The notes beneath the pieces were generated by a model. It was given only the letters and a program-made list of their open reading frames with translations, did no database searches and was not told the DNA's origin. Positions 1-46,296 of a stretch of DNA of 64,000 nucleotides are shown piece after piece. Each line of letters opens with the position of its first letter. Within the stretch, counting starts at the first letter, position 1. The position numbers and the translations under genes are program-made. Source of the stretch: Agromyces sp. ISL-38 (GTDB lineage: Bacteria > Actinomycetota > Actinomycetes > Actinomycetales > Microbacteriaceae); contig NZ_JAGGPF010000014.1 in NCBI RefSeq assembly GCF_018613935.1, positions 1 through 64,000 of the forward strand. Direction: 5' to 3'.

Positions 1-334
1 CGCGGGCGCTGGCCGCCGCACCGACCGCACTCGCCCCCGCGCCGGCCCACGGGGCTCGCGCTCTGGCGGGCGCGCTTGCTCTCCTCGGGGCCGCGCCACC
101 AGGCCTGTCGCCGCCACCGGAATCTGCAGGAGATCTCGCGTCACAGGCACGCATCTGGGTGCATGATCCGGAATCTCCTGCATTTCGAGAGTCGTGACGC
201 TCGGACGAGGTGCAGTTCTCTCCACGCTGGTGTGCCCGACGAGGTGCAGCAGCTCTCCACAGCGCTGGCGAGGTCCTTCCACAGTCAAGGTGAATCCGAG
301 AGCTACGGATGCCTCTGTGCGCGAGACTCGCCGC
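1..334. other. Left-edge stretch without a confident gene
   Basis: No gene can be supported here. The third forward frame stays open from the window edge to a TGA near 198 and reads as an Ala/Pro/Leu-rich peptide. It could be the tail of a truncated upstream membrane protein, but it runs straight through the palindromic repeat at 125-182, which argues against it. The other frames are Arg/Pro-rich, as expected of high-GC shadow translation. The only clear element is the repeat described separately. Confidence 0.5.
125..182. repeat. 58-bp palindromic repeat, copy 1
   Basis: Begins TGCAGGAGAT and ends ATCTCCTGCA, so the 10-base ends are perfect inverted repeats around a 38-base interior. A second element of exactly the same length and design lies at 1395-1452. 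Both are followed immediately by TTTCGAG. The two copies share most bases of the left half as well as the ends, so they are copies of one element rather than two unrelated hairpins. They bracket the DUF559 gene. Confidence 0.8.
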
Positions 335-1378
335 ATGAACCCGACCTCTTCACCAGAGCGCGACGATCGCGTCGGCCCTCCGCGACCGCCCACCGGCGTC
401 TCTCCGACGAAACGGGACCGGGTCACTCAACCCTCTCGGCGGTCGGCACGCGCAGCTCGACCCGAAGTCGGCGCGGTGGCGCGCCGTATCCGGGAGAACG
501 GCGGTGCGCTCTCCTACGCGTCGCTCGATGCAGCAGGCGTCTCCCGTCATGACGTCGCGGCGGCGCTCCGTGCCGGCGCGATCGTGCGGGTGCGGAACGG
601 ATGGTTCGCGTACCCTGGGGCTCCTCTCGACGTGGTGCGAGCGGCACGCGTCGGCGGCGCGCTCACCGGGGCATCCGTTGCTCGACTGCACGGGCTCTGG
701 CTGCTCGACGATCCTTTGCTGCACGTCCGCGTTCCGTCGTCGAGTGCCCGGCTGCGCGCCCCCGACGACCGTCGGATCTCGCTCGACCGCGGCGAGCACG
801 GCGTCTGCGTGCACTACCGGCCGGACGGTGAGAGTTGTGCACGCGACCCTCTGCCTGTCGCGCTTGCCGAGATGTTCCCGTGCAGCGGACCGGTCGGTGC
901 CATGATCGCACTCGACTCCGCCCTGAACAGCGGTGAACTCACGTCGGCGGGGCTGGCGCAACTTCGTGGGCTCGTCTCGGCAGCGCACAGTCGCCTTGTA
1001 GATCGCGCGGACCCTGGGTGCCAGTCGGGTCTTGAGACGATCGCTCGATTGCTGCTTTACCGTCGCCGGGTGGCGCACCGAACCCAAGTGTGGATTCCGG
1101 GCGTCGGCTACGTCGATCTCCTGATCGGTGATCGGCTTGTTGTGGAGCTCGACGGCAGGAGCTTCCACGAGGGCGAGGACTTCGAGACCGACCACCGGCG
1201 CGACTTCGAGCTCGCCCTGCGCGGGTACGTCGTCGTTCGGATCTCGTACCGCATGATCATCGACGACTGGGAGCAAGTGGAGGCCGGGATCCTCACCCTC
1301 CTCGCCCGTGGCGAGCATCGCTGGGGACACCGCGCGAGCGAAGTGACCGCCCCGGGACCGCTCGTAACGTGGAGCTGA
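335..1378 (+). CDS. DUF559 / Vsr-like endonuclease-fold protein with N-terminal AbiEi-like winged helix
   Basis: Predicted 347-residue protein. Residues about 40-120 resemble the winged-helix N-terminus found in AbiEi-type antitoxin and DUF559 proteins (a SYASLDAAGVS helix-turn-helix stretch, then GWFAYP). The C-terminal third carries the DUF559 signature, with VDLLIGDRLVVELDG near residues 259-273. That pattern matches the D and ExD positions of the PD-(D/E)XK fold shared with Vsr nickases. A substrate is unknown for this family. ATG 335 is chosen because upstream in-frame codons run back toward the repeat; the alternative start at 194 would add 47 Arg/Ser-rich residues. The gene stands alone between two 58-bp repeats. 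Family placement is firm; nuclease activity is inference. Confidence 0.8.
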   Translation: MNPTSSPERDDRVGPPRPPTGVSPTKRDRVTQPSRRSARAARPEVGAVARRIRENGGALSYASLDAAGVSRHDVAAALRAGAIVRVRNGWFAYPGAPLDVVRAARVGGALTGASVARLHGLWLLDDPLLHVRVPSSSARLRAPDDRRISLDRGEHGVCVHYRPDGESCARDPLPVALAEMFPCSGPVGAMIALDSALNSGELTSAGLAQLRGLVSAAHSRLVDRADPGCQSGLETIARLLLYRRRVAHRTQVWIPGVGYVDLLIGDRLVVELDGRSFHEGEDFETDHRRDFELALRGYVVVRISYRMIIDDWEQVEAGILTLLARGEHRWGHRASEVTAPGPLVTWS

Positions 1379-1394: not shown

Positions 1395-1452
1395 CGCAGG
1401 AGATATCGCTTCAGAGGCGCGCTAGCCGACCTATGGTGGAGGATCTCCTGCG
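1395..1452. repeat. 58-bp palindromic repeat, copy 2
   Basis: Begins CGCAGGAGAT and ends ATCTCCTGCG, with perfect 10-base inverted ends. It has the same length, orientation and TTTCGAG downstream flank as the element at 125-182. It starts 16 bases after the DUF559 stop codon. It could act as a transcription terminator or mRNA 3' stabiliser for that gene, but there is no T-tract. Confidence 0.8.
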
Positions 1453-4854: not shown

Positions 4855-6474
4855 ATGAGCACCACGATCGACGACGAGGTCACCTCGGGGACTCCGAAGA
4901 AGCCGACGAAGCGGCAGCGCCAAGCGGCAGGCATCGCCGAAGCGGCATCCGGCGGGGTGAAGATGCTCCTCGTCAAGGTGCTGATGCTCGGCATCGTCGA
5001 TGCGATCGCCGTCTACGCGATCTTCATCCTCATCACGAGCGACCAGTGGCTCGTGGCCGGCATCGTCGGCGTCGTCACGGCGATCGTGAACTGGATCTAC
5101 TTCTCGCGCACGAAGCTCCCCGCGAAGTACCTCACCCCGGGCGTCATCTTCCTCGTGATCTTCCAGGTGTTCGTGCTCGTCTACACGGGCTACATCGCCT
5201 TCACCAACTACGGCACGGGGCACAACGGCTCGAAGGAGCAAGCGGTCTCGTCGCTCATGAGCTCGGCGCTCGAACGCGTGCCCGACTCGCCGACCTACGA
5301 GGTCACCGTCGTCGACCAGTTCGGCGAGCTCGGCCTGCTCGTCACCGATCCCGACGGCGAGGCGAGCGTCGGCACGACCGACTCGCCGCTCACCGAGGTC
5401 GACGCCGAGATGGAGGGCGGCAAGGCCGTCGCCGTCGACGGCTGGACGACCCTGAGCTTCGCCGACGTCATCGCCCGCACCGACGAGATCACCGAGCTCG
5501 CGGTGCCGTTCTCCGACGACCCGAACGAGGGCGCCATCCGCACGCCCGATGGGTCGAGCGGATACCTCTACCTCTCGAACCTCGAGTACGACGCCGCCGC
5601 CGGAACGATGACCGACCTCAGCACGGGCACCGTCTACTCCGACCTCGGCACCGGCGCCTTCACCTCCGACGACGGCGAGCAGTTGTTGCCCGGCTGGCAG
5701 ATCGTGGTCGGCTTCGACAACTTCGTGCGCGCGGTCACCGACGAGCGACTGGCGGGCCCGCTCCTCTACGTCACGCTCTGGACCTTCGCCTTCGCACTCA
5801 TCTCGGTCGCGTCGACGTTCTTCCTCGGCCTCTTCCTCGCGATCGTCTTCAACGACCTGCGCATGCGAGGCCGCAAGTACTATCGCGTGCTGATGATCCT
5901 CCCGTATGCGGTGCCGTCGTTCCTGTCGGCGCTCGTGTGGGCGGGCATGATGAATGAGAGCTTCGGATTCATCAACCAGGTGCTGCTCGGCGGGGCATCC
6001 GTTCCCTGGCTCACCGATCCGGTCGTCGCGAAGATCTCGGTGCTCGTCGTCAACCTCTGGCTGGGCTTCCCGTACATGTTCCTCGTGTGCACGGGAGCGC
6101 TGCAGTCGATTCCCGAAGAGCTGCAGGAGGCCGCGACCGTCGACGGCGCGCGGCCGTGGGCGGTGTTCCGGCTCATCAAGCTGCCGCTCCTGCTCGTGAG
6201 CGTCGCACCGCTGCTCATCGCGTCGTTCGCCTTCAACTTCAACAACTTCAACGTGATCTACATGTTGACCGACGGCGGGCCAAGAGACTCGAACGCACCC
6301 ATACCCGTGGGCTTCACCGACATCCTGATCTCGATGGTCTACAAGGTGGCCTTCACCGGCCAGTCGCGTGACTACGGTCTCGCGAGCGCGTACTCGATCA
6401 TCATCTTCATCGTCGTCGCGGTGATCTCGGTCATCGCCTTCCGTCGCACCAAGTCGCTCGAGGAGCTGAACTGA
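4855..6474 (+). CDS. malF: Maltodextrin ABC transporter permease MalF
   Basis: Predicted 539-residue inner-membrane permease. It has a charged cytosolic N-terminus, early membrane segments around residues 45-110, and a long extracytoplasmic insert (about 115-285) as in MalF of enterobacteria. The binding-protein-dependent transport domain follows. The EAA loop that contacts the ATPase is seen at EELQEAATVDGARPWAVFRL. The long insert distinguishes MalF-type from ordinary CUT1 permeases, which are about 300 residues. It ends one base into malG (TGATGG overlap), so the two are translationally coupled. No ATPase gene follows. Confidence 0.92.
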   Translation: MSTTIDDEVTSGTPKKPTKRQRQAAGIAEAASGGVKMLLVKVLMLGIVDAIAVYAIFILITSDQWLVAGIVGVVTAIVNWIYFSRTKLPAKYLTPGVIFLVIFQVFVLVYTGYIAFTNYGTGHNGSKEQAVSSLMSSALERVPDSPTYEVTVVDQFGELGLLVTDPDGEASVGTTDSPLTEVDAEMEGGKAVAVDGWTTLSFADVIARTDEITELAVPFSDDPNEGAIRTPDGSSGYLYLSNLEYDAAAGTMTDLSTGTVYSDLGTGAFTSDDGEQLLPGWQIVVGFDNFVRAVTDERLAGPLLYVTLWTFAFALISVASTFFLGLFLAIVFNDLRMRGRKYYRVLMILPYAVPSFLSALVWAGMMNESFGFINQVLLGGASVPWLTDPVVAKISVLVVNLWLGFPYMFLVCTGALQSIPEELQEAATVDGARPWAVFRLIKLPLLLVSVAPLLIASFAFNFNNFNVIYMLTDGGPRDSNAPIPVGFTDILISMVYKVAFTGQSRDYGLASAYSIIIFIVVAVISVIAFRRTKSLEELN

Positions 6475-7454
6475 TGGCCACCAAGGAGCACCGCTCGTGG
6501 GTCGAGGCCCCTGTCGTCGAGGCCGAGATACTCGCCGCGGGGCTCGACGCTGAAGCAGCGCGGAAGTCGCGCCCGCCGGGGCCGCTGCCGAAGCGTCCGT
6601 TCAACTTCGGCCGCTGGTTCGCGGCGACCGGCTGGCGCCACGTCGTGGGCGTGGTGATGGTGGCCTTCTCGCTGTTCCCGATCATCTTCGTGATCTCGTC
6701 GTCGCTCAATCCGCGCGGCACGCTCACCGGATCGAACGCGCTGTTCGCGAAGATCGGCCTCGACAGCTATGTGCGGATCCTCACCGACCCGCAGGTGCCG
6801 TTCACGACGTGGTTCGGCAACACCCTCCTCATCTCGGGCATCACGGCGGTTGCCACGGTGTTCCTCGGAGCGCTCGCGGCGTATTCCTTCTCGCGCATGC
6901 GCTTCACAGGGCGGCGCTTCGGCCTCATCTCGATCGTCGTCGTGCAGATGTTCCCGCAGATGCTCGCCGTGGTGGCGATCTTCCTGCTCATGAGCGGGAT
7001 CGGCGACTGGTTCCCGGCGATCGGCCTCAACACGCACGTCGGCCTGATCATGGTCTACCTCGGCGGCGCGCTCGGCGTGAACACCTACCTGATGTACGGC
7101 TTCTTCAACACCGTGCCCGCGTCGATCGACGAGGCGGCCAAGATCGACGGCGCCGGTCATGCGCGCATCTTCTTCACGATCATCCTGCGGCTCGTCGCCC
7201 CGATCCTCGCGGTCGTCGCCCTGCTGTCGTTCATCGCCTCGGTGAACGAATTCCTCGTGGCATCCGTGCTGCTCATCGACACCGAGCAGCAGACGCTCGC
7301 CGTCGGCCTCACGAAACTCGTGTCGAACCCGCGCTATGCCGACTGGAGCGCCTTCTCGGCGGGCGCGGTCATCGCCGCGCTGCCGGTCGTCGCGCTGTTC
7401 CTCTTCCTGCAGAAGTACATCGTCGGCGGCCTGACCGCCGGCGCCGTCAAGTGA
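6474..7454 (+). CDS. malG: Maltodextrin ABC transporter permease MalG
   Basis: Predicted 326-residue permease of the CUT1 MalG type. About 60 cytosolic residues precede six membrane segments. The EAA loop is visible at SIDEAAKIDGAGHARIFF, and the ending KYIVGGLTAGAVK is typical of MalG C-termini that reach the ATPase dimer. It pairs with MalF to form the channel. Translation is coupled to malF by a one-base overlap. The operon ends here, directly before a repeat array, and there is no ATPase gene, so a shared MsiK/MsmK-type ATPase encoded elsewhere is the likely partner. Confidence 0.92.
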   Translation: MATKEHRSWVEAPVVEAEILAAGLDAEAARKSRPPGPLPKRPFNFGRWFAATGWRHVVGVVMVAFSLFPIIFVISSSLNPRGTLTGSNALFAKIGLDSYVRILTDPQVPFTTWFGNTLLISGITAVATVFLGALAAYSFSRMRFTGRRFGLISIVVVQMFPQMLAVVAIFLLMSGIGDWFPAIGLNTHVGLIMVYLGGALGVNTYLMYGFFNTVPASIDEAAKIDGAGHARIFFTIILRLVAPILAVVALLSFIASVNEFLVASVLLIDTEQQTLAVGLTKLVSNPRYADWSAFSAGAVIAALPVVALFLFLQKYIVGGLTAGAVK

Positions 7455-7467
7455 CCGGTGGCGTTTT

Positions 7468-7595
7468 CACAATTCAGGAGCGGATGCCGCGGGGTGCTGC
7501 ACAATTCAGGAGCGGATGCTGCGGGGTGCTGCACAATTCAGGAGCGGATGCCGCGAGCAGTTGCACAATTCAGGAGCGGATGCCGCGAGGTCGCA
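7468..7595 (+). repeat. Four direct repeats with exact 32-bp period
   Basis: Copies start at 7468, 7500, 7532 and 7564. Each begins CACAATTCAGGAGCGGATG and continues with a GC-rich variable tail. The first 19 bases are identical in copies 1, 2, 3 and 4; the tails diverge most in copies 3 and 4. The 32-base period is close to three turns of B-DNA. The array starts 13 bases after the malG stop codon. The encoded peptide in any frame is repetitive and not a credible gene. Confidence 0.9.
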
Positions 7596-7643
7596 GGTGA
7601 AGCGCCAGATCGGATGACATCCCGAGCGCAAATCGCAAGACGT

Positions 7644-7699
7644 TCCTGAATTGTGAAATAGACGTTCCTGAATTGTGAAATGGGTGGTCCTGAATTGAG
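7644..7699 (-). repeat. Three inverted copies of the same core with 22-bp period
   Basis: TCCTGAATTGTG at 7644 and 7666, and TCCTGAATTGAG at 7688, are reverse complements of the CACAATTCAGGA core of the four upstream direct repeats. Their period is 22 bases, about two helical turns. Transcribed from malG, this half could pair with the upstream half to form a large alternative stem. The last copy ends 24 bases before the GH13 start at 7724. Confidence 0.9.
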
Positions 7700-7723
7700 A
7701 ACTGGAGACCGGAGAATGAGGGG

Positions 7724-9574
7724 ATGCTGACGCCGCACCACGACGGATCCCCACTGCACGTCTCGACGCATACCCCGGCGCTCGGCGAGGTCGTTCGCGT
7801 GCGGCTGCGCGTGCCGGAGTCGTTCGCGCCGCTCACGTGGGTGGGCACGCGATCGAACCCGAACCGCGAGCCGCGGTTCTCCGAGGCATCCGTCGTCGCG
7901 ACCGCCGACGGCTGGCAGTGGTGGGAGGCGCCCATCGAGGTCGAGAACCCCGTGCACGGCTACCGGTGGCTGCTTGTCGGCGCCGACGGCCGGCAGCACT
8001 GGCTCAATCAGATTGGCCTCTTCACGACCGAGACGCGCGACCACGACGACTTCCGCCTCGTCGCGCACGCACCGCCGCCCGAGTGGGCGGCGTCGAGCGT
8101 GCTCTACCAGGTGTTCCCCGACCGGTTCGCGAGGTCGGATGGCGCAGACGGGCGCGAGCTGCCGTCGTGGGCGATCCCGGCGGCGTGGAGCGACCCCGTC
8201 GACGCCGACCCGCCCGGCCGCTCGCAGCAGTTCTACGGCGGCGACCTCGACGGAGTGCGCGAGCACCTCGACCACCTCGAGCAGCTCGGCGTGAACCTGC
8301 TCTACCTCACGCCCGTGTTCCCGGCGCGTTCGAACCATCGCTACGACGCGTCGACGTTCGACGAGGTCGACGAGCTGCTCGGCGGCGATGACGCGCTCGT
8401 GCGGCTCGTCGAGGAGGCGCACCGTCGCGGCATCCGCGTCATCGGCGACCTCACGTCGAACCACTCGGGTGACGCGCACGAGTGGTTCACGGCGGCGCAG
8501 GCCGATCTTGCTGCGCCCGAGCGCTCGTTCTACTACTTCCGCGACGAGGCGCACGGCGGCGGCTACGAGTCGTGGCTCGGCGTGCCGAGCCTGCCGAAGT
8601 TCGACTGGAGCTCGAGCGAACTGCGGCGCCGGTTCATCGAGGGGCCCGACTCGGTCGTCGCGCGCTACCTCGCCCCGCCGTTCAGCCTCGACGGCTGGCG
8701 CATCGACGTCGCGAACATGACGGGCAGGCTCGGCGCCGAAGACCTGAACGCCGACGTGCGCCAGACGATCCGACGCACGATGCTCGAGGTGAACCCCGAC
8801 ACGATCCTGCTCGGCGAGTCGACGAACGACGCGGCGAGCGACTTCCAGGGCGACGCGTGGCACGGCGCGATGACGTACACGCCGTTCACGCGGCCGCTCT
8901 GGAGCTGGCTGCTCGAGCCCGGCAGCGCGGGCGGCGGCGGCATCGGATTCGCCAACGCCGCGGTGCCCTCGTACACAGGGCACGACTTCATCGAGGCGCA
9001 CCTGCGTTTCAGCGCGGGGTTCCCGTGGCGCACCCGGACCGCGACGATGAACGCGCTCGACACCCACGACACGCCGCGCTTCCGCACGTCGGCGCGCCCC
9101 GGAACCGTACCCGTCGCACTCGGGCTCGCGGTGACGCTGCCCGGCATCCCGGTCGTGTGGGCCGGCGACGAATTCGGACTCACCGGTGTCGACGGCGAGG
9201 AATCCCGTACGCCGATCCCATGGGGGAGCGAGGCGTCGCCCGAGGTCGCGCCGGTGCTCGAGACGTACCGGTCGCTGCTGCGCTTGCGCCGCGACCACCC
9301 GGTGCTCGCGACGGGCGGCATCCGCTGGCTCGCGGTCGGCGACGACGCAGTGGCGTTCGTGCGAGAGTCGGCTGACGAGCGGCTGCTGGTCTTCGCCGCG
9401 CGGGGCGCTGCGACGCTCGCGCTCGCGCCCGAGTCGGTCTGGGCGACGGATGCCGCGACGCCGCTGTTCGGTGACGCCCGGCTCGAGGCATCCGCTGGTC
9501 TCCTGGCGCTCTCGGCCGCCGGGCCGACGTTCGCGGTCTGGCAGCTCGACGGCGTCACCGCTCCCGACTGGTGA
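7724..9574 (+). CDS. GH13 cyclomaltodextrinase/neopullulanase-like glycosidase
   Basis: Predicted 616-residue enzyme without a signal peptide, so probably cytoplasmic. Residues 1-120 form a beta-rich N-domain as in neopullulanase and cyclomaltodextrinase. The catalytic barrel begins at VLYQVFPDRFARS. Conserved regions seen are DLTSNHSG, GWRIDVANMTG (nucleophile Asp near 327), ILLGEST (acid/base Glu near 365) and LDTHDTPRF. The C-terminus is a beta-sandwich. Expected role: linearising or shortening cyclodextrins, pullulan fragments or maltodextrins imported by the preceding transporter. A GGAGAATGAGGGG ribosome site precedes ATG 7724. The repeat array separates it from malG, so it may be expressed independently. 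The exact substrate is not deducible. Confidence 0.9.
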   Translation: MLTPHHDGSPLHVSTHTPALGEVVRVRLRVPESFAPLTWVGTRSNPNREPRFSEASVVATADGWQWWEAPIEVENPVHGYRWLLVGADGRQHWLNQIGLFTTETRDHDDFRLVAHAPPPEWAASSVLYQVFPDRFARSDGADGRELPSWAIPAAWSDPVDADPPGRSQQFYGGDLDGVREHLDHLEQLGVNLLYLTPVFPARSNHRYDASTFDEVDELLGGDDALVRLVEEAHRRGIRVIGDLTSNHSGDAHEWFTAAQADLAAPERSFYYFRDEAHGGGYESWLGVPSLPKFDWSSSELRRRFIEGPDSVVARYLAPPFSLDGWRIDVANMTGRLGAEDLNADVRQTIRRTMLEVNPDTILLGESTNDAASDFQGDAWHGAMTYTPFTRPLWSWLLEPGSAGGGGIGFANAAVPSYTGHDFIEAHLRFSAGFPWRTRTATMNALDTHDTPRFRTSARPGTVPVALGLAVTLPGIPVVWAGDEFGLTGVDGEESRTPIPWGSEASPEVAPVLETYRSLLRLRRDHPVLATGGIRWLAVGDDAVAFVRESADERLLVFAARGAATLALAPESVWATDAATPLFGDARLEASAGLLALSAAGPTFAVWQLDGVTAPDW

Positions 9575-45222: not shown

Positions 45223-46296
<1,074 letters not shown>

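Follow-up and report, generated by a model that had tools for sequence, protein, structure and literature searches.

A phased, two-armed repeat array between malG and a GH13 gene of Agromyces as a probable dispersed element recognised by an AbiEi-EDxHD/Vsr protein

The window analysed here is the whole stretch of 64,000 nucleotides from Agromyces sp. ISL-38 (source genome G000, 3.72 Mb in 24 contigs). The repeat array at 7468-7699 in this window is probably a dispersed copy of a two-armed element that is recognised by an AbiEi-EDxHD/Vsr protein, in an arrangement resembling that of REP repeats and RAYTs, with an unrelated enzyme. Many genes of the corresponding family have such an element on either side, and each of these genes has a motif of its own. 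We observed the arrays and their helical phasing, the pairing of genes with arrays, covariation of motif and protein, and a deletion in the nuclease part of the gene on contig C4 that is the cognate of the window array. The array and the adjoining genes are located in the window as follows.

6474..7454, plus strand: malG-like permease gene, 5' of the array, with a BPD_transp_1 domain
7468..7575, plus strand: forward arms, CACAATTCAGGA at 7468, 7500, 7532 and 7564, in 32-bp steps (32, 32, 32)
7576..7643, no strand: gap between the converging arms, the innermost cores being 77 bp apart, core to core
7644..7699, minus strand: reverse arms, CACAATTCAGGA at 7644, 7666 and 7688, in 22-bp steps (22, 22)
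7724..9574, plus strand: GH13 alpha-amylase-type gene, 3' of the array, with an Alpha-amylase domain

The earlier note on this DNA had described seven copies, four forward at 32 bp followed by three inverted at 22 bp, between malG and a GH13 gene, and both the coordinates and the domains encoded on either side agree with that description. Six of the seven CACAATTCAGGA copies are exact, the exception being the copy at 7688-7699 with a single mismatch. If up to two mismatches are tolerated, the window contains 8 matches, 7 of which form the array, at an expectation of 1.58, and 0 of 100 shuffled sequences reached 8. The 32-bp unit is composed of the 12-bp core, a word resembling GCGGATGCCGCG and a tail that varies. 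The word GCGGATGCCGC turns up in many intergenic gaps, within and outside arrays (window 7468-7591 and the malG-GH13 gaps of relatives). Elsewhere in the window, a run of the hexamer GACGAG occupies 46189-46229 (6.8 copies, 97% matches). A CRISPR, which the note had discounted, is ruled out by the 32-bp units, which are near identical throughout without unique spacers, and by the inversion of the second half. Its proposal of iteron-like phased protein binding stands in part: helical spacing classes recur in related arrays, and a replication iteron is not supported by the adjoining genes, which are malG-like and GH13 and not a replication initiator.

Further arrays, for which the note had suggested a search, are present in the source genome. 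It holds 37 exact CASAATTCAGGA sites, compared to 0 for the reversed control, and in a grouping to which 12 one-mismatch sites were also submitted these form 14 groups, 13 of them convergent (forward then reverse) and one a single copy. In a set with one genome per species, the 12-mer is present in 17 of the 60 genomes of the genus, and 64 of 398 Microbacteriaceae genomes, representing 29 of 85 genera, carry the convergent pair AATTCAGGA...TCCTGAATT, with reversed controls of 0 in every row. The bases flanking the core vary from genome to genome. According to a simple gene caller, 48 of 79 arrays are flanked by tandem genes, 23 by convergent genes and 8 by divergent ones, and 9 of the 79 share over 60 bp with a called gene; compared with baseline gaps (47 tandem, 15 convergent, 16 divergent) the orientation bias does not go beyond a trend (Fisher p 0.067 and 0.080). 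A distribution restricted to the terminus, suggested by the first ten listed places of genome G225, was dropped because other genomes have scattered array places. Gene-free doublets of two arrays are found at L095 16581-16815, L097 15174-15380, L100 6255-6549 and L101 5645-5922; these may be leftovers of brackets after gene loss.

A linked gene family is indicated by three stretches from other genera, in which AATTCAGGA arrays adjoin genes whose start resembles AbiEi. A first bracket test, on a set less shaped by selection, included 34 DUF559 loci, 4 from G000 and 30 from 90 Microbacteriaceae genomes. Convergent repeats of one motif bracketed 13 of these loci at a score of at least 22 and 14 at any score, compared to 1 and 4 of 102, respectively, in the shuffle control. 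When the test also takes the position of the gene into account, arrays of their own motif bracket 52 of 103 family loci (51 of 100 distinct), in most cases no more than about 100 bp from the gene. This rate is not unbiased, since later loci were partly chosen because of their arrays; for random placements in real sequence the figure was 26 of 2,809 (0.9%). The bracketed genes stand between two whole elements. By the same test 49 of the 100 distinct loci have no bracket, which counts against the proposed link between family and arrays. A phylum-wide sample gave 13 bracketed loci out of 29, and outside the Microbacteriaceae 10 out of 26, two of these ten scoring only 19 and 21. Brackets of a related motif, GAGCAGTCGC / GAGCAGACGC, at L307 (G521) and L309 (G597), from another family of the same class, show that the pairing extends beyond Microbacteriaceae. 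At L095 6921-6998, L096 9679-9756 and L097 6538-6615 an array at the 3' end of a family gene supplies the final codons of that gene in frame, the open frame thus running through the array.

Arrays of the AATTCAGGA type bracket a family gene on both sides, with at most 1 mismatch, in 13 of the 21 genomes that carry such arrays (G000, G004, G008, G024, G059, G080, G096, G169, G172, G225, G276, G420 and G422), and such an array is found on one side of a family gene in two others (G257, G316). The remaining six gave no bracketed family gene, in the case of G036 among the sites listed. No family match is located within 5 kb of an exact array site in G002, G003, G010, G045 and G048; arrays thus persist in these five genomes without a bracketed cognate, which also speaks against the main reading. 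Named contig stretches with the pair number 119, many being chance matches in other phyla; 6 of them contain a family gene, and a AATTCAGGA array adjoins each, for example in Cryobacterium algoricola (L352) and Salinibacterium amurskyense (L328).

Motif similarity rises with protein identity over 51 bracketed genes (Mantel r 0.22, p 0.001). Below 30% identity the longest motif match averages 4.9, and this mean increases to 5.2 at 30-40%, 7.4 at 40-50%, 9.7 at 50-65% and 13.7 above 65% (three pairs). It was predicted beforehand that a species with another motif in the malG-GH13 gap should have a family gene bracketed by that motif. The gap motif was found on both sides of family gene L267 in G020, on both sides at L280 in G059 (one of eight family loci looked at there), and as single arms on both flanks of L252 in G016. 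In G026 it brackets L284, a case that had been partly seen before the prediction.

The cognate gene of the window array is found on another contig of the source genome, and the window itself contains a paralogue with its own bracket:

C4:143884-144513: cognate gene of the window array (locus L160), bracketed by the same arrays
C4:143505-143661 and C4:144589-144756: arrays bracketing the cognate gene
window 125..182, no strand: two-arm convergent element 5' of the paralogue, with TGCAGGAGAT arms
window 389..1378, plus strand: paralogue of the linked family (AbiEi-type region and DUF559 nuclease), start codon approximate
window 1395..1452, no strand: two-arm convergent element 3' of the paralogue, with CGCAGGAGAT arms

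The bracket on C4 lies between an accA3-like gene of the biotin-carboxylase type and a gene for a pyridine nucleotide-disulphide oxidoreductase; the neighbours of the L160 gene encode a biotin-lipoyl protein and this oxidoreductase. Alignment of the cognate (L160 1384-2154) with L280 and L131 revealed an in-frame deletion of the part that carries the catalytic residues D, H and D. The DNA-binding part is kept and the frame is open, and the deletion may represent a natural turn from nuclease to binding protein. Since the cognate has lost its nuclease core, the array in the window probably represents an older copy, perhaps still bound and no longer moved. In G048, two array groups lie about 180 bp apart 3' of accA3, with no family match between them. 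The unit at 389-1378 is a second gene with bracket (score 20), located upstream of the mal operon, and its motif is related to that of the array and different from it. The gene was rejected as the cognate of the 7468-7699 array because it carries its own motif. An AbiEii toxin gene is found neither beside this gene, where the next gene is GH13, nor beside L160, where both neighbours are other genes.

The family proteins consist of an AbiEi-type DNA-binding region joined to an EDxHD/Vsr-type nuclease (DUF559/MTES_1575). Among 20 members the residues E195, D222, H239 and D246 are invariant; Pfam models matched as DUF559 in 18, MTES_1575 in 17 and AbiEi_4 in 12 of these, and PADLOC returned its AbiEi model for 17 and a homing endonuclease model for 8. 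The four residues are all kept at 97 of 103 loci, including 51 of the 52 bracketed ones; the proteins that lack the set are one bracketed protein, the C4 cognate, and five of the 51 unbracketed ones. Profile searches matched PDB entries 3hrl (8.1e-14) and 3r3p, which is I-Bth0305I (E 1.2e-6). In an AlphaFold2 model of the G225 protein (pLDDT 93.2), residues 1-190 match AbiEi 6y8q (Z 7.2, 177 aligned, 4.5 A; Foldseek E 7.4e-5), and residues from about 190 to 288 match 3hrl, 3r3p and 1vsr (Z 8.6, 8.4 and 6.2). These predicted fold matches are modest by Z alone and consistent with the sequence matches. The bracketed proteins that were scanned gave no match to transposase models, and Y1 (Transposase_17, PF01797) is not among the matched families listed. 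No intron or intein was seen.

The malG-GH13 gap was read by eye in 30 genomes. AATTCAGGA arrays occur there in three, as FFFFRRR in G000, FFRR in G048 and FR in G045, a change by whole units at the same place such as the earlier note had thought worth looking for. Convergent pairs of other motifs are present in four (G059, G020, G016 and G026), and no array was seen by eye in the other 23, with malG not recognised in two (G024, G001). The array-free gaps are short and diverged, so that element borders could not be drawn from empty sites. Comparison with 22 array loci from six other genomes of the genus gave a match at the homologous place for 8 of 12 array loci of G000; the array is thus neither unique to one strain nor a fragment of a known mobile element, the two findings that the note had held to tell against its proposal. 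In 11 comparisons of homologous arrays, at loci picked for exact cores, the arms are 86% and the sequences between the arms 69% identical; the pair L046 and L200 forms an exception with arms less alike than spacers. At a FrnE-glyS site in one genus, 5 of 6 genomes were matched and the gene is present in 4 of the 4 with enough flank, which left no solo site to compare.

One alternative, which we consider unlikely, is that the arrays are DNA sites useful to the host, acting in chromosome organisation, silencing or insulation or as part of a defence system, and that the AbiEi-nucleases are domesticated binding factors rather than selfish enzymes. It would fit the greater identity of arms than of spacers, at loci so chosen, the retention of arrays at homologous places and their presence in genomes whose cognate has lost the nuclease or was not found. 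The one family protein used as query gave no plasmid or phage match, which is in line with host sites and counts against the main reading. However, the distribution in the genus is patchy (the 17 of 60 genomes noted above), most relatives examined have no array at malG-GH13, and the four mentioned have other motifs there. That the array is a local operator for a mal/GH13 regulator, with phased sites controlling only that operon, is highly improbable: the position between two operon genes and the phased direct repeats fit a regulator, but the same sites occur beside unrelated genes in the 13 other groups of G000 and the malG-GH13 motif is changed or missing in relatives.

Spacing within the arrays follows the DNA helix. 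Convergent neighbour pairs (n=141) cluster at 53, 65-66, 76-77, 87 and 97-98 bp, and tandem pairs (n=49) at 21-23, 32-33 and 42-44 bp. The best-fit periods are 11.3 and 10.35 bp, and 0 of 2,000 uniform draws reached either, giving p values that are too small because many pairs are related by descent; with each convergent distance taken once (24 values) p is 0.03, weaker than for all 141 pairs. The 77-bp core-to-core spacing of the window array is the commonest class among related arrays. In the arrays of this class (n=34) a centre resembling CGCGnAATTnCGCG stands out, with a symmetry that is built in since each array was entered in both orientations. Within one array, the extensions of the forward and reverse arms resemble each other no more than extensions taken from different arrays do (7 genomes with 3-13 arrays each; permutation p 0.16-0.73), and this lack of covariation favours separate protein sites on double-stranded DNA.

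The same result gives no support to the suggestion of the earlier note that the two halves can pair in RNA. We give only a very slim chance to an RNA element between malG and GH13, be it a hairpin, a terminator or an mRNA-stability signal. The forward and reverse halves are complementary and the 48 tandem and 23 convergent settings among 79 arrays would suit it, but the arms do not covary in any of the 7 genomes, the spacing tracks the helix, the array has no Rfam match, and window 7300-7900 contains 0 terminator-like sites (stem-loop plus T run), as expected from the note's view that this is not an ordinary terminator. An ordinary insertion-sequence fragment or a chance repeat expansion is hardly credible, as the note had already held for an IS end: the window copy by itself could be a local expansion, but against this stand the 37 exact sites with none of the reversed pattern, the 64 of 398 Microbacteriaceae genomes, for which every reversed control shown is 0, and the scanned bracketed proteins, which match no transposase model.

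For the array as a dispersed element recognised by a family protein, a possible way of working can be outlined. Subunits of the protein would bind the converging arms, helical phasing would keep these arms to one defined side of the DNA, and the bound subunits would meet over the array centre; binding as a multimer appears well supported. The nuclease domains of intact members may then cut or nick at the centre, as the conserved residues and predicted fold modestly suggest. Repair might copy arrays, or a gene with its two arrays, into intergenic places elsewhere, in the manner supposed for RAYTs and their REPs, and we put forward such spread of arrays or genes only tentatively. Inter-arm spacers of different arrays in one genome have no evident kinship, neighbouring doublets excepted, so recent copying is not seen, which counts against spread; further weak points are that no near-identical distant array copies were noticed and that arrays in this genus are retained even with a dead cognate or with none found. 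In G000, with its dead cognate, the array would perhaps still be bound while its movement would have ended. In a wider sense, we judge the chances about even that a second, independently evolved REP-like world exists in Actinomycetota, in which private phased elements bracket AbiEi-EDxHD genes and seed solo copies, cut-and-repair spreads arrays and genes, and gene loss leaves arrays behind.

No earlier description of these arrays was found among the titles and abstract openings listed from the open-licence literature. In the parts of that literature that were available, REP repeats are tied to one enzyme type, the RAYTs. If the reading proposed here is correct, an unrelated nuclease family has the same layout of brackets and scattered copies, such systems arose more than once, and proteins still named as domains of unknown function acquire a role. 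The many gene-motif pairs form a ready test set for DNA reading by AbiEi-EDxHD proteins. With their help one can also test whether arrays of the REP-like kind are selfish copies or turn into host sites after death of the enzyme, as may have happened in G000.

Compared with known systems, the arrays are closest in layout to REP, BIME and REPIN sequences with their RAYTs. According to published work, RAYT genes are always flanked by two inverted REPs and coevolve with them (PMC2817692), REP doublets form REPINs (PMC3116915), and REPs occur mostly between tandem and convergent genes (PMC3733652). Shared features are short extragenic repeats, convergent doublets and scattered copies, as well as a gene flanked by its own repeats and a motif and enzyme that vary together (PMC2817692, PMC3116915, PMC3733652). 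In contrast, the enzyme here is an AbiEi-EDxHD protein whereas RAYT is a Y1 (HuH) transposase, arms of the form TTCA[CG]AATTCAGGA have no GTAG or CGTC tag and no hairpin-type self-complementarity of their own, the arms are phased on the duplex with no covariation within an array, and copies number tens, not hundreds. With both the enzyme type and the tagged palindromic unit absent, the Agromyces system is not a member of the REP/RAYT group.

The nuclease fold and the E-D-H-D residues are shared with Vsr and with EDxHD homing endonucleases such as I-Bth0305I, which according to a review forms a dimer on a target nearly 60 bp long (PMC3943268). Unlike in these homing endonucleases, no intron or intein is involved as far as seen, the gene is located between two whole elements, and the protein has an AbiEi-type N-terminal part. 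AbiEi, the antitoxin of a type IV toxin-antitoxin system, binds paired inverted repeats. The family differs from it in having no AbiEii toxin neighbour at the two genes examined and in its fusion to a nuclease domain, and resembles it in the N-terminal part of about 190 residues, which is predicted to share the 6y8q fold.
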